DNA from: a virus
IMG/VR virus record: IMGVR_UViG_3300010885_016018
Span: 1-32,547 of that record
DNA: 32,547 nt
Reading direction: 5' to 3' (one strand)
The stretch's first letter is position 1. Each line of letters begins with the position of its first letter. Under the pieces are notes generated by a model. That model did not search any database, had not been told where the DNA came from, and saw nothing but the letters and a program-made list of their open reading frames with translations. The position numbers and the translations under genes are program-made. Positions 18,093 through 23,049 of this stretch are shown here, piece by piece.

Positions 18093-18662
18093 TTATCCTG
18101 CCAACGATAGAAATTCAGCGCGCACTTCGGGATTGCGGAACTCGCCAGTAAGGGAGGAAGTCACCATTTCAGCACCGGGCTTCCTAACCCCTCTGCAGCC
18201 CATACACGAGTGATGAGCGCGAATGAGAGCAGCACTACCCTGAGTGCTTAAATGCTCATCTAATGCCGTTGTAATCTGCGTTGTTAGGCGTTCTTGCACC
18301 TGTAGGCGGCGAGCATAAGCGTCTACCAGCCTTCCTATCTTGGAAAGCCCTACTACTCGGTCTTGCGGAATGTAGGCGACAGTAGCGGTTCCTGTAAAAG
18401 GTAACAGATGGTGCTCGCATAAACTGACGAAATCTAAGTTCCTGACTATAACCATCTCATCCACATTCCCTACTTCAAAGGTGACTCCCAAGATTTCTGA
18501 AATGTCCTTGCCGTAACCTTCCGTCATTTCTTTATAGGCTTTAGCAACACGCTTAGGAGTATCTAATAAGCCTTCGCGGTCAGGATTCTCTCCTATAAGG
18601 CGCAATAGCCATTTGATTCCTTCTTCTGTTGCTTCCTGTAAGTTGCCTGTAAGCGCGTTCAT
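18093..18662 (-). CDS. folE: GTP cyclohydrolase I
   Basis: A 189-aa enzyme that converts GTP to 7,8-dihydroneopterin triphosphate, the first step toward preQ0. Visible motifs are 'ENPDREGLLDTPKRVAKAY', 'SLCEHHLLPFTGTATVAYIP' with zinc ligands C82 and H85, and 'HHSCMGCRGVRKPGAEMVTS' with C153. The start at 18662 is chosen because its ATG overlaps the queE stop (ATGA) and has GGAGGGG just upstream; the longer frame to 18716 would overlap queE by 58 bases without a ribosome site. Length is normal for the family. It is the last gene of the deazaguanine operon. The host must have its own FolE for folate, so this copy probably boosts flux. Confidence 0.95.
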   Translation of the reverse strand: MNALTGNLQEATEEGIKWLLRLIGENPDREGLLDTPKRVAKAYKEMTEGYGKDISEILGVTFEVGNVDEMVIVRNLDFVSLCEHHLLPFTGTATVAYIPQDRVVGLSKIGRLVDAYARRLQVQERLTTQITTALDEHLSTQGSAALIRAHHSCMGCRGVRKPGAEMVTSSLTGEFRNPEVRAEFLSLAG

Positions 18663-19372
18663 ACGCCCCTCCGTAAATCCCAAATTAAAGTATGAAGTCT
18701 GGTAGTCAGATTCCATCTACGAGCAATAACTCCATCAGCAATTCGCTGCAGCGTAGTTAACTGCTCTTCTCGGGTTGCGCCTTCTGGCATAACCCAAATC
18801 TTATCTTCTGGTAAGTGGAAATCTTTTACCCATTTGGCTATTTCTTCCAAATCGCTCTCTTGCTGAGCAACGAACTTAAAAATTACGCTATCGTGATAGT
18901 CAGAAAGATTGGTAAAGGTGTCTAGTGCTTCTCGGTTTATCCGCTTAGACTCCGGATCTCCGCCATGAGCCAATTTCGGGGAAACTGAGAATTGCTGGAC
19001 TTTAAGAATAGTATCTCCTGCAGGAACTATCGTTCCGTTGGTTTCAATGTGAATCTTTATACCTGCAGCGAATAAGCCGTCAAGGAGCGCATTCCAACCA
19101 TCTTGCTTCTGTTGTAATAAAGGTTCTCCGCCTGAGATAACTACTGCTTTAACCTGCAATTCCTTTACTGATTCTAGAATTTCGCTAACGGGTGTCCGCA
19201 CCATTTCATTGCGCAGATCAAATCGAGTCGCGTCCCAAGTGTAAGGTGTATCGCACCATGAGCAAGAAAGATTACAAGCACCTAAGCGAATGAATCCCAC
19301 TATTTGCCCAGCATAAACTCCCTCACCTTGAATGGTGGGTCCGAAAATCTCAGAAACAACAAGAGTTTTCAT
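18659..19372 (-). CDS. queE: 7-carboxy-7-deazaguanine synthase (radical SAM)
   Basis: A 237-aa radical SAM enzyme that turns 6-carboxytetrahydropterin into 7-carboxy-7-deazaguanine. The cluster motif C33-x3-C37-x2-C40 ('CNLSCSWC') follows the substrate-binding 'EIFGPTIQGEGVYAG', and 'VVISGGEPLLQ' is the GGE motif for SAM binding. 'IETNGT' and 'SPKLAHGGD' are also family signatures. The start overlaps the queD stop (TAATG). It is third from the end of the operon, after queD, the enzyme that supplies its substrate. Confidence 0.95.
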   Translation of the reverse strand: MKTLVVSEIFGPTIQGEGVYAGQIVGFIRLGACNLSCSWCDTPYTWDATRFDLRNEMVRTPVSEILESVKELQVKAVVISGGEPLLQQKQDGWNALLDGLFAAGIKIHIETNGTIVPAGDTILKVQQFSVSPKLAHGGDPESKRINREALDTFTNLSDYHDSVIFKFVAQQESDLEEIAKWVKDFHLPEDKIWVMPEGATREEQLTTLQRIADGVIARRWNLTTRLHTLIWDLRRGV

Positions 19373-19821
19373 TATTCACCTTTATAGTAAGCAACAGAAG
19401 TAGGAGTTTCCCATACTGCAACTTCTTCTAACACTAAACCATCTCGGAATCGTTCATTTATTGTCCAAAAGAGTTGTTCCCATGACCAGCGAGCAATGTT
19501 TTCCGCAGTTGGAATGTATGGAAAGTTAATTACTTGCCAACCATTACCGTTAAGCAAATCACTTAATACCGAATCTTCTTCCCAAACGATAAATGAATGG
19601 TCAAGGACATCATGGACTAAATGAGTCATGATGAGTTTTAAGTCTGAGAAATCTACGAGCATTCCGTTATCGGGAGAACCTGCTTCATCTACTATCTTGC
19701 CTACGCAGGTAACGCGCACTTTATAACGATGTCCATGCGGGTTGCGGCATTTGCCTTGATGTGAAGGTACGCGGTGTCCAGCGTCAAATTCTATTTCTTT
19801 AGAAATTAGGGCTTTTGTCAT
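19372..19821 (-). CDS. queD: 6-carboxytetrahydropterin synthase
   Basis: A 149-aa member of the 6-pyruvoyl-tetrahydropterin synthase family, making 6-carboxytetrahydropterin from dihydroneopterin triphosphate. Zinc ligands are H16 ('FDAGHR'), H29 and H31 ('NPHGHRY'). C25 lies in the right place to be the catalytic Cys, H75 is in 'LDHSF', and E138 is in 'VWETP' for pterin anchoring. It overlaps queC by ATGA and queE by TAATG. Length is a little over the E. coli enzyme because of an insertion after the central strand. Confidence 0.95.
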   Translation of the reverse strand: MTKALISKEIEFDAGHRVPSHQGKCRNPHGHRYKVRVTCVGKIVDEAGSPDNGMLVDFSDLKLIMTHLVHDVLDHSFIVWEEDSVLSDLLNGNGWQVINFPYIPTAENIARWSWEQLFWTINERFRDGLVLEEVAVWETPTSVAYYKGE

Positions 19822-20507
19822 TTTAGTGGGTTCTCATACTCAGGAAATGACGCGTATTCGGTTGGGTCTTCTACGCCCGCAACGGTAAAGGCTTCGCGTC
19901 TTTCAAAGCAAGTACCGCACGCTCCACAATGAATTTCTCCGCCTTTATAGCATGACCAAGAAAGACTTAAAGGAGCATCAATGTCTGCTCCTATTTTTGC
20001 GATGTCCGCTTTAGAGATTTCTACGAAAGGAGCGATAATCGTAATGTCACCAAAAGTATTAGTGCCAAGTTCTAACGCTTTACTCATAGCCGTAACGAAT
20101 TCTGGTCGGCAATCTGGATAGATGTAATGATCTCCGCTATGCACCGCAGTTGCTACATAATCTAGTTTCCTTGCCACCGCAATTCCCGCAGCAACTGAAA
20201 GCATAATTGCGTTTCTATTAGGAACGACTGTAATTCGCATAGTTTGCTCTGCATAGTGTCCATCAGGAACTACTACTTCATCGGTAAGTGCGCTGCCAGT
20301 TAGAAATGGTTTAATGGATTCGAGGCTGACCGTGTCGTATTTAATTCCGAAATGGTCGGCAACTTTATAAGCGGATTCTAACTCTTTAGAATGGCGTTGC
20401 CCGTAGTTAATTCCAATAGTTTCAACCCAGTAACCATCTGCTAGTAATTTTGCAACTAAAGTGGTGGAATCCATGCCACCTGATAGAAGTGCTAAGGCTC
20501 TTTTCAT
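19818..20507 (-). CDS. queC: 7-cyano-7-deazaguanine (preQ0) synthase
   Basis: A 229-aa PP-loop ATPase that converts 7-carboxy-7-deazaguanine, ammonia and ATP into preQ0. The PP-loop 'SGGMDS' is at 9-14; 'GINYGQRHSKELESA' follows. A zinc site is formed by C186, C194, C197 and C200 in 'CYKGGEIHCGACGTC'. 'VPNRNAIMLSVAAGIA' and 'GDHYIYPDCRPEF' are family motifs. All catalytic features appear intact. It is coupled to the QueF-like gene before it and to queD after it by ATGA overlaps. Confidence 0.96.
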   Translation of the reverse strand: MKRALALLSGGMDSTTLVAKLLADGYWVETIGINYGQRHSKELESAYKVADHFGIKYDTVSLESIKPFLTGSALTDEVVVPDGHYAEQTMRITVVPNRNAIMLSVAAGIAVARKLDYVATAVHSGDHYIYPDCRPEFVTAMSKALELGTNTFGDITIIAPFVEISKADIAKIGADIDAPLSLSWSCYKGGEIHCGACGTCFERREAFTVAGVEDPTEYASFPEYENPLK

Positions 20508-20908
20508 GCTAACTCTTTCTGAAAGCGGAGTGCGGTAGAAGTCATTTGTAAGCCACCGCGTATTTGCTGAATAGAAGTAACCTCTATGCGAAATGGCTTA
20601 AAAGCGTCCATCAAGTCATTTGCGATAGTTGCTGCTACTGCTTCACCAAAAATTCCAGTATTGCGAAATTTCATAAGGTATAACTTCAATGACTTAGATT
20701 CAACGCATAACTCATCTGGTACATAGTCAATGATGACTGTATAAAGGTCAGGCTGATCTGTTACGGGGCAGAGAGAAGTAAATTCGTGAGTTTCGAACTT
20801 AACTGAATTTACTTTTGGATTAGCAAAAGTTTCTAATTGGTTGGCTTCTAACGCTCCGTCAATTTTGCTTCCAAGAACTGTTAAATGTTCTACTGATGGA
20901 TTACTCAT
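20504..20908 (-). CDS. queF: QueF-like 7-deazaguanine reductase lacking the active-site His
   Basis: A 134-aa T-fold protein of the single-domain (B. subtilis-type) QueF family, which reduces the nitrile of preQ0 to the aminomethyl group of preQ1 with NADPH. Cys47 in 'FTSLCPVTDQPD' and Asp54 match the nucleophile and acid (C55, D62 in B. subtilis). The QueF motif E70-SKSLKLY for NADPH is intact, and Glu89 matches E97. The motif usually read FRNHGxFHE is here FRNTGIFGE, so the conserved His (H96) is Gly88, confirmed at codon GGT. The protein is shorter than QueF at the C-terminus. It could be a slow QueF, or an enzyme adding something other than hydride to preQ0. It overlaps queC by ATGA. Confidence 0.85.
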   Translation of the reverse strand: MSNPSVEHLTVLGSKIDGALEANQLETFANPKVNSVKFETHEFTSLCPVTDQPDLYTVIIDYVPDELCVESKSLKLYLMKFRNTGIFGEAVAATIANDLMDAFKPFRIEVTSIQQIRGGLQMTSTALRFQKELA

Positions 20909-20915
20909 TTTTCTC

Positions 20916-21557
20916 CTAAATAAAAATTACGGGTGCTTTTGTTGGCTGCAGTGAAAACCGATTTGCGTATTTGAGCAAGAGGGTTGCCTTGTGGTTTTTT
21001 AGACCAAAATAATCCGCCCACTCGCATAGCCTTTCTATTCGCCTTGCCACATCTAATGCCGTTTCAGTTGTAGGTGGGGTAATGGTGCAAAGTGCACCAG
21101 TTCCGCCATCTGTCCTTTTCATAGCCCAACCACGCCCGAATAGTCTTTCATTAACTGTCCAGACATCGCCTTGCTTTATAAAACGGATTAGTTCAAAATC
21201 GCACGAAAAAGGTTGTTTCCCATGTATTCCGCATCTTCCGTTTTCTTGTATTAAGTTTTTACATCTACTGCCTTTATTCTCTTCCTGCGTATCTGACCAA
21301 AGAGTAACACTTTTTCCATTAAAATCAACTGTTCTTTCAACTAATTCATACGGTTTTGCTTCTTTTTCTATGTAATCTAATGAGAAAGTAGGGCAACACC
21401 CTCCGCAGTTAGAAGGACAAGTAAAGCCTTTTAAGAATCCAGTTCCAACTCTTAGCAGCATAGGTTGGTAAATCGTGCCTTTATAAGTGAAGGGGTGAGA
21501 GGTAATGGCAGCAAAATAACTGCTAACCACTTTATCTATCGTATCCCGTTGGGGCAC
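20916..21557 (-). CDS. YkgJ-type Cys-cluster protein of the deazaguanine operon, candidate base-tailoring enzyme
   Basis: A 213-aa protein starting with GTG inside the stop of the ParB-like gene (TAGTG). It has the YkgJ/FliB signature C47-x3-C51-x2-C54-C55 ('CPSNCGGCC') plus C99, C109, H112 and C119 ('GRCGIHGKQPFSC'), expected to hold an iron-sulfur cluster or zinc. Residues 130-213 form a helical C-terminal part with 'FGRGWAMKRTDGG'. Members of this superfamily include FliB, which methylates flagellin lysines, so a methyl transfer to an amino group is possible. Its place between the transglycosylase pair and the QueF-like gene suggests it acts on the 7-deazaguanine side chain or works with DpdA. 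The exact reaction cannot be read from sequence. Confidence 0.75.
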   Translation of the reverse strand: MPQRDTIDKVVSSYFAAITSHPFTYKGTIYQPMLLRVGTGFLKGFTCPSNCGGCCPTFSLDYIEKEAKPYELVERTVDFNGKSVTLWSDTQEENKGSRCKNLIQENGRCGIHGKQPFSCDFELIRFIKQGDVWTVNERLFGRGWAMKRTDGGTGALCTITPPTTETALDVARRIERLCEWADYFGLKNHKATLLLKYANRFSLQPTKAPVIFI

Positions 21558-22228
21558 TACTTTCCTGCTTTATTAAGAAGATGAGAAATAAAAGCCCCTG
21601 CCTGTAATTTCGGGTCTTTAGGAAAATCGCTGCGTAATTCAGCAAGGTAATCTTTCCAACGTTGCTCGGTATCTTCATCTAAAAGAGCATTAACCCGAAA
21701 ACCTTCATCACTTTTAGTATCGAAATCATCATCTACTACTCCAGTACCAAACTCATCCCAGTTAAAATCTGAAACCGCCATAAGTTCTGCAATTTGAGGC
21801 GCGGTATAAGGCAGACCTACTCCCAAAGTATCTCCCAAAGTTAGAGAAATGTCTGCTAACAAATGACCCAAACTAACGAGATCGGCTTGACCGCGAGTTT
21901 CATTCATGATAACCGTTAGTTTTTTTGCTCTTGCTTCTTCTATCTCTAGCACTACCGCAGGAATAGTTCTTTGCTTGATGAGGTCTTTGACATTTTCTTT
22001 ACCTTCTAATTTTTTTTCTGCTATTTCCTGCAACGCTCGCCATCTATGCTCCCCGTCAATAATTTGATAGTTACCTTCATGCTCTCGGACGAGAATAGGG
22101 GCGATGAAACCGTTGTCTAAGATAGATTCGATTTCTGCTGCATACTGACGCTCGTTCTGCTTATTCGGGTTCCAAGGATTTGCTTCTACTTTAGCGATAG
22201 GTAAGTGTTCTACTATGAGTTTTTCCAT
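21557..22228 (-). CDS. ParB/sulfiredoxin-fold protein paired with DpdA (DpdB-like)
   Basis: A 223-aa protein with a ParB N-terminal domain: 'IAKVEANPWNPNKQNERQ' and the nucleotide-binding box 'YQIIDGEHRWRAL' (GEHRW at 59-63). The C-terminal half is helical and acidic, with no clear HTH. The start at 22228 is chosen because its ATG overlaps the dpdA stop (TAATG); the longer frame reads back into dpdA. In bacterial dpd islands DpdB, which has a ParB-like domain, is needed with DpdA to insert preQ0 into DNA, and phage dpdA genes often have a ParB-like neighbour. It likely powers or targets base exchange; a plasmid partition role is unlikely here. Confidence 0.82.
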   Translation of the reverse strand: MEKLIVEHLPIAKVEANPWNPNKQNERQYAAEIESILDNGFIAPILVREHEGNYQIIDGEHRWRALQEIAEKKLEGKENVKDLIKQRTIPAVVLEIEEARAKKLTVIMNETRGQADLVSLGHLLADISLTLGDTLGVGLPYTAPQIAELMAVSDFNWDEFGTGVVDDDFDTKSDEGFRVNALLDEDTEQRWKDYLAELRSDFPKDPKLQAGAFISHLLNKAGK

Positions 22229-23049
22229 TAGTCCTCCCAGACAATTCCGCGAGCAGCCCATAACGAAGTTATAGCATCGCCCATGCGTATTTGATTTTCT
22301 ATTCCTTTTCGGGCAACGAAAGTAACTGCTTCCCGACTATCTCTGTGCCTTATTACTTCTACTCCGTAATTCTTACCTACCCGAGCAGTTTTGCCAAGTT
22401 CATTGGTATAGCCTCCATAACGAAAAGGTGATGACCAAGTTGAGGAATCTGCTGAGTAATACGGAAAGTTAGCAAGCATTCGGTAAGAGGTAACGGCTAA
22501 ACCATGAGTGCGCGGAAAAACTTTATTATGATTTTCTACAAAATGACCCATAAGAACTTTCTGCCATGCCAGTTTAGAATTAATCGCGACATCGTTTCGG
22601 GGAGAAATGCCAAGAATTCCTTTAGGCGGTAAGCGTGATACCAGTAAGTCTAAAAACTCTCTTGATTCATCTTGGTGGAATACTTCCATTACTTCCAATC
22701 CCTGCGCTCGCAAGTAATCTGCGTTTTTAAGGCTCATCTCCATGCCAGCCTTGCGTTCTTTTTCGCTAGAAGTCTTGCCTCTTTCACCCGGAATCACATC
22801 TAAGTTAACGCATACCACGCGCCTGTATTTTTCTTTTTGTTTATTTGACCAATCCGCGTATGCTGAAATGTCTACTTTAGTTCCTTTAGACCATGCGCTA
22901 AACGCACCAGAATCAAAGATTAAATACTCAGGATTCCAAGTGACGGGTTCTAGTGCTTCTTTATACTCAAAAGATACTAAGACATTTTTCGGCGCGAGTT
23001 GCTGCATCATAAGCCCATGACTTAAACCAAGTGCGAAGGTCAGCCTCAT
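22228..23049 (-). CDS. dpdA: DpdA-type DNA 7-deazaguanine transglycosylase
   Basis: A 273-aa TIM-barrel protein related to tRNA-guanine transglycosylases. Matching positions are 'LIFDSGAFSAW' (D46, like the substrate-binding Asp of TGT), 'VNLDVIPG' (D84), 'MEVFHQDE' (H125), 'GILGISPRND', 'THGLAVTS', and 'YYSADSSTW' with D201 in the place of the nucleophilic Asp. It is shorter than tRNA TGT and lacks its zinc-binding C-terminal Cys set, as is usual for phage DpdA. It should swap guanine in DNA for a 7-deazaguanine made by the downstream genes. It leads the operon, behind a 14-bp hairpin that ends 16 bases before its ATG, with GAAAGG as ribosome site. Confidence 0.88.
   Translation of the reverse strand: MRLTFALGLSHGLMMQQLAPKNVLVSFEYKEALEPVTWNPEYLIFDSGAFSAWSKGTKVDISAYADWSNKQKEKYRRVVCVNLDVIPGERGKTSSEKERKAGMEMSLKNADYLRAQGLEVMEVFHQDESREFLDLLVSRLPPKGILGISPRNDVAINSKLAWQKVLMGHFVENHNKVFPRTHGLAVTSYRMLANFPYYSADSSTWSSPFRYGGYTNELGKTARVGKNYGVEVIRHRDSREAVTFVARKGIENQIRMGDAITSLWAARGIVWED

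Follow-up and report, generated by a model that had tools for sequence, protein, structure and literature searches.

The window analyzed here is the whole 32,547-nt stretch of viral DNA in IMG/VR record IMGVR_UViG_3300010885_016018. It carries a run of eight genes on a single strand, in the order DpdA-type transglycosylase, ParB-like protein, DpdM-like Cys-cluster protein, QueF, QueC, QueD, QueE and FolE (Table 1). The FolE-QueC-QueD-QueE-QueF-DpdA cassette is therefore complete, and all enzymes for the route from GTP to preQ1 are encoded in the window. The third gene of the run is real: its open reading frame lies on the minus strand and opens with a GTG codon at 21557, while the plus strand of the same interval is riddled with stops. 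The final G of the TAG codon of the ParB-like gene doubles as the first base of this GTG, so that the overlapping start given in the preliminary description is confirmed as a 1-base overlap, and the ATG of queF begins 7 bases past the stop of the DpdM-like gene. The same description placed the gene between a transglycosylase pair and a QueF-like gene. The QueF neighbor stands, but only the 273-aa protein matches transglycosylases; the supposed second member of the pair is ParB-like and has no transglycosylase domain match. Invariant Asp residues of alignment A7 fall in the DSGAF and ADSSTW motifs of the window DpdA. As a side observation, phrog_887 matches this protein, whereas PF23859, the DpdA model in Pfam, gives no match at E 0.5. 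Scanning the window for Rfam families and tRNA genes found none, and PADLOC made no call for the DpdM-like protein.

Table 1 Genes of the window cassette and DUF6610 genes of three bacterial loci
Feature	Record	Position	Strand	Size and evidence
DpdM-like Cys-cluster protein	window	20916..21557	-	213 aa; ORF, PF03692, phrog_16018, conservation, model
ParB-like protein	window	21557..22261	-	234 aa; PF02195 5e-14; phrog_723
DpdA-type guanine transglycosylase	window	22228..23049	-	273 aa; phrog_887 6e-34
QueF (QueF-II type), preQ0 reductase to preQ1	window	20504..20908	-	TIGR03139 117 bits vs cut-off 86.9; PF14489
QueC, 7-cyano-7-deazaguanine synthase	window	19818..20507	-	TIGR00364 194 bits vs 150
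QueD	window	19372..19821	-	TIGR03367 90.6 bits vs 89.25
QueE, radical SAM	window	18659..19372	-	TIGR03365 6.8e-33 (below cut-off); PF04055
FolE, GTP cyclohydrolase I	window	18093..18716	-	TIGR00063 220 bits vs 181.6
DUF6610	L053	7239-7943
DUF6610	L049	7297-8007
DUF6610	L048	1201-1920
DUF6610 + DpdM-like pair	L053	7239-8630
DUF6610 + DpdM-like pair	L049	7297-8633
DUF6610 + DpdM-like pair	L048	1201-3548

The translation of the DpdM-like gene contains the cluster C47-x3-C51-x2-C54-C55 (CX3CX2CC). This C-x3-C-x2-C-C cluster, already pointed out in the preliminary description, is borne out beyond chance: PF03692, the YkgJ-type CxxCxxCC domain, scores 24.7 bits against a gathering cut-off of 23, phrog_16018 matches at 4.1e-35, and the cysteines are kept throughout the family. 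In alignment A2, which comprises 40 sequences (the window protein, 34 viral-contig rows and five phage rows) and excludes incomplete, disrupted or redundant rows, among them L029, L030, L036, L041, L042, L044 and L046, residues 47, 51, 54, 55, 99, 109, 119 and 157 are Cys in 40/40, and the ninth cysteine, C178, is not conserved (Cys in 1/40). Glu122 is found in 39 of the 40 sequences and His112 in 35. PF03692 matches 37 of the 40 at E 1. In the window protein the match spans residues 47-121 only, and the N-terminal part as well as C157 with the C-terminal helices fall outside the domain match. The radical SAM family PF04055 had no match to the window protein at E 1 and does not figure in the list of 14 families for A2, and no SAM-binding motif was identified in the DpdM-like family.

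An AlphaFold2 model of the DpdM-like protein, built with 36 sequences, reached a pLDDT of 96 and a pTM of 0.91. Searched against the PDB with Foldseek, this model retrieved no solved structure at E 0.001, and the best hit of a second fold comparison with the PDB (VIA-align Z 3.3, rmsd 3.7) covers only 58 residues. Among the viral models of BFVD there were just three matches at E 0.001, with lengths of 214, 217 and 304 aa that fit the Knocker, phiSM and Vibrio relatives described below; M1PXL2, whose 217 aa equal the length of phiSM gp53, has a TM of 0.84 to the DpdM-like model. Zinc fingers returned by a sequence search of solved structures were rejected as chance-like (best E 0.16).

To our knowledge, FliB is the only characterised enzyme with a comparable eight-cysteine core. 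FliB is described as a SAM-dependent methylase that has eight conserved cysteines and needs a [4Fe-4S] cluster on CX4CX3CC (PMC8598068). We gathered 12 FliB proteins with the NCBIfam model NF038110 and found the eight cysteines invariant in all 12, in the same order as in the DpdM-like family; in both, the first four form a tight, CC-ending cluster. Comparison of the FliB and DpdM-like profiles gave a score of 31.8; none of 200 column shuffles exceeded 22.2, and the reversed profile reached 10.4. The match probability was 17% when the DpdM-like family was the query and 60% when FliB was the query. Ordinary PF03692 proteins scored higher, 43.5, a value to be taken as a caution only since it comes from a poor, mixed alignment of five proteins from eight loci. 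PF03692 itself matches 8/12 FliB proteins at E 10. Searched the other way, NF038110 yielded no family match for the window protein at E 0.1 and matched 0/5 phage records with relatives and 0/14 controls; in the phylum to which bacterial genome G047 belongs, it matched 18 of 398 genomes. Unlike FliB, which has CX4CX3CC in about 400 aa and acts on a lysine in a protein, the DpdM-like protein has CX3CX2CC in 213 aa and its proposed substrate is a base. The superfamily link to FliB that had been suggested for this gene is remote: the order of the eight cysteines is shared and the profile match, although weak, lies above the shuffles, but the NCBIfam model of FliB stays silent and the spacing differs. 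Because NF038110 is unmatched, the Cys spacing differs and ordinary PF03692 proteins score higher, we do not count the family as FliB members; the two have a common domain and perhaps a common mechanism.

Relatives of the DpdM-like protein occur in 27 of 50,697 phage records and, by an alignment-based scan, on 41 viral contigs, some of them near-duplicates (L044 and L004 represent one virus); a viral-contig scan with a single sequence as the query found no relative. In bacteria there are nine loci in eight genomes, and a plasmid search gave no match. The family profile matched 3/385 sampled genomes of the class of G047, two of them already known and one weak, and the family is therefore rare in bacteria. 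Gp53 of the Cellulophaga phage phiSM aligns at 38.7% with 99% of the window protein used as query (E 3e-35; 42% identity in alignment A1) and is flanked by queF and dpdA. In Pseudanabaena phage Pan1 the relative lies between a small ORF and a TGT gene, with QueF just upstream, and in Mycobacterium phage Knocker it lies between dpdA and queC. Deazaguanine genes (FolE, QueC, QueD, QueE, QueF or DpdA) were present within the fetched flanks at 35/41 viral-contig loci, and 180 of 180 such neighbor matches share the strand of the relative; the flanks of the other six loci contained none. The position within the cassette varies: the order FolE-gene-QueF was seen in 15 loci, and others have QueC-gene-QueD, QueD-gene-QueE or QueE-gene-FolE. 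From these several positions it follows that the DpdM-like gene was probably put into cassettes repeatedly and then kept there. In Vibrio phages the gene is distant from the cassette in both records examined (2 of 18), and the fetched flanks of most bacterial copies contained no deazaguanine gene.

The gene is closely associated with queF, which was present in 27/27 isolate records with a relative, representing four lineages and not 27 independent cases (nine records were found via the window QueF and 18 Vibrio records via a Schizotequatrovirus QueF). QueF scored above the cut-off in 40 of the 47 records examined; the other seven comprise the 47-kb contig G032 and six fragments, 4-18 kb in size. 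In two of the eight bacterial genomes with a relative, QueF over the cut-off was not found. Among the best 80 of 154 DpdA loci, the DpdM-like gene was found at 16 of 66 loci with QueF and at none of 14 without (Fisher p 0.03), which is a weak test because most members of this DpdA clade have QueF in any case, near-duplicate contigs are included and the sample is the best 80 of 154; some gene labels in it are low-scoring (for example those in L157, at 37 bits, and L184, at 41 bits). The constant company of QueF bears on whether the DpdM-like protein might methylate a protein as FliB does, for example a DNA-binding protein of the phage or host, and merely travel with the cassette. Vibrio phages and some bacteria have the gene apart from the cassette, which would suit such a role, as would the remote similarity to FliB; however, every isolate record with the gene and all 16 of the DpdA loci with it (among the best 80 of 154) have queF, and FliB's own model is unmatched, so that we regard protein methylation as very improbable.

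Published base chemistry provides a contrast. Plain dPreQ1, with no methyl group, is given for phages Dp-1, HVTV-1 and 6E35.1a, and dPreQ0 for the DNA of nt-1 (PMC12028318 and PMC6884629 for the former, PMC12028318 for the latter). For 6E351A, which we took as record 6E35.1a, PMC12028318 gives 15% of dG as modified, with a mass of 295 Da consistent with dPreQ1. A profile search at E 10 over the whole records of 6E35.1a, Dp-1, HVTV-1 and nt-1 found no relative of the DpdM-like protein, and the same search did recover the relative in Knocker and phiSM. In 6E35.1a, Dp-1 and HVTV-1, queF is present and the relative absent; Schizotequatrovirus D480, unlike 6E35.1a, does have the gene. The Vibrio phages nt-1 and CZ01 have QueC and are among neither the QueF records nor the records with a relative. 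That queF cassettes without the DpdM-like gene give plain dPreQ1 fits a gene acting after QueF. Furthermore, the Mycobacterium phages Knocker (L003) and Rinkes (L234) have the same operon, in Rinkes without the DpdM-like gene, and so constitute a natural presence/absence pair. Funsized, like Knocker and Rinkes a Mycobacterium smegmatis phage, has QueF as well, and no relative was detected in it.

These comparisons also weigh on an accessory function, in which the protein would carry a metal or Fe-S cluster for the radical SAM enzyme QueE or for DpdA and tailor nothing. The Pfam label of PF03692 as a putative zinc- or iron-chelating domain and the radical SAM QueE within the cassette would both agree with a carrier. 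Nevertheless, full QueE and DpdA cassettes exist without the gene, which is absent from 64/80 DpdA loci (best 80 of 154), and the modified phages Dp-1, HVTV-1, 6E35.1a and nt-1 do without it, as does Rinkes with its otherwise same operon; a carrier role is accordingly quite unlikely. The cassette context, the 27/27 records with queF and the contrast with the plain-dPreQ1 phages instead give good comparative support to the earlier proposal that the protein modifies the aminomethyl group which QueF generates, with methylation as the simplest option. A base-tailoring role downstream of QueF is likely.

As to which enzyme this would be, Cui et al. 2023 (NAR) reportedly found 7-(methylamino)methyl-7-deazaguanine in the DNA of phages and are said to have validated DpdM, a dPreQ1 methyltransferase whose fold differs from that of other nucleic-acid methylases. 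Gp53 of phiSM, which we take to be the published DpdM, is the sole enzyme-like gene of the phiSM cluster that lacks an assigned function: gp55 is Lys/Ala-rich, gp56 has 61 residues, and neither has a Pfam match. Since gp53 is the only enzyme-like candidate there, we take the window gene to be, most likely, DpdM, a (d)PreQ1 N-methyltransferase. Like the reported DpdM, the window protein belongs to a phage cassette with QueF and DpdA, and its model retrieves no solved structure at E 0.001; unlike DpdM, it comes from another phage and has the 42% identity to phiSM gp53 noted above. The suggestion that it is a new base-tailoring enzyme was therefore not upheld. It is very probably a further member of an enzyme type that is known but has been little studied.

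The pathway that we propose runs as follows. FolE, QueD, QueE, QueC and QueF would make preQ1 from GTP, and DpdA, presumably with its ParB-like partner, would swap guanine in DNA for preQ1. The DpdM-like protein, as a member of the DpdM family, would probably add one methyl from SAM to the exocyclic primary amine of 7-aminomethyl-7-deazaguanine, either as the preQ1 free base or as dPreQ1 in DNA, giving 7-(methylamino)methyl-7-deazaguanine in phage DNA. We infer an Fe-S/SAM mechanism, in which a metal centre, [4Fe-4S] or similar, on the four-Cys cluster may assist in binding or activating SAM, as in FliB. Judged by homology and the activity reported for DpdM, methyl is most likely the group added. 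The co-occurrence data point to the QueF-made amine and not to the type of group, and a SAM motif was not found, both of which leave room for another tailoring of the preQ1 amine, such as dimethylation, formylation or the attachment of some other one-carbon or acyl group. Published enzymes of this kind, however, reportedly include a methyltransferase of unusual fold. In addition, FliB, with its comparable eight-cysteine core, is a SAM methylase (PMC8598068), and we consider another added group unlikely.

If monomethylation is right, N-methylated preQ1 in place of dPreQ1 is predicted for a set of phages with marine, mycobacterial or cyanobacterial hosts as well as for many uncultured ones, a prediction made directly testable by the near-identical operons of Knocker and Rinkes. 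The eight-Cys order in common with FliB would also offer a concrete mechanism for an enzyme that matches no solved fold.

In three bacterial records, Methylobacterium sp. Leaf117 (L053), an Alphaproteobacteria MAG (L049) and an Acidobacteriota MAG (L048), the DpdM-like gene adjoins a gene for DUF6610 (PF20314; Table 1), and the flanks retrieved at these loci yielded no gene for deazaguanine synthesis. In the cassettes of Knocker (L003:1-1314), L007, L010 and L031, DUF6610 also occurs as the C-terminal portion of a ParB fusion, and the last three records contain no phrog_887 transglycosylase. The model of the L053 DUF6610 protein (pLDDT 91, pTM 0.87) matched tRNA-guanine transglycosylases at a Foldseek E of 4.3e-5, with other TIM barrels scoring alike. 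With 2nqz, one of these transglycosylases, it gave a VIA-align Z of 13.7 (rmsd 3.4, 219 residues); two pyridoxine-phosphate-synthase barrels tie 2nqz in Z, but align over just 182-183 residues. From this model, we predict that DUF6610 forms a barrel resembling guanine transglycosylases. A nearby DpdA match was seen at none of the 77 viral loci with DUF6610, while QueC, QueD or QueE was present at 16, and DUF6610 seems to stand in for DpdA in some deazaguanine cassettes. It would then be a further transglycosylase family of 7-deazaguanine DNA systems; our literature search found no paper naming DUF6610. The bacterial pair of DUF6610 and the DpdM-like gene is a possible two-gene modification module. 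The L053 genome has QueF elsewhere. No QueF over the cut-off was found in the L049 and L048 genomes, which speaks against a simple supply of preQ1 there, though both are MAGs. It is a tentative and rather doubtful idea that FliB-like Fe-S/SAM base methylases extend beyond phages, with the DUF6610 pair of bacteria such as Methylobacterium acting as a chromosomal module in which DUF6610 would be an unrecognised DpdA-type transglycosylase, and writing a methylated 7-deazaguanine into DNA or RNA from preQ1 of the host queuosine pathway.

Two further observations concern unusual copies. A Syntrophobacteraceae MAG (genome G044; L050 and L054) has the DpdM-like gene in four copies, including a tandem pair, with no deazaguanine-gene match adjoining the copies in L050 and L054. 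In two similar contigs, one viral (L046:5998-6628) and one from a Smithella MAG (L056:1833-2460), the DpdM-like gene is split into two frames.
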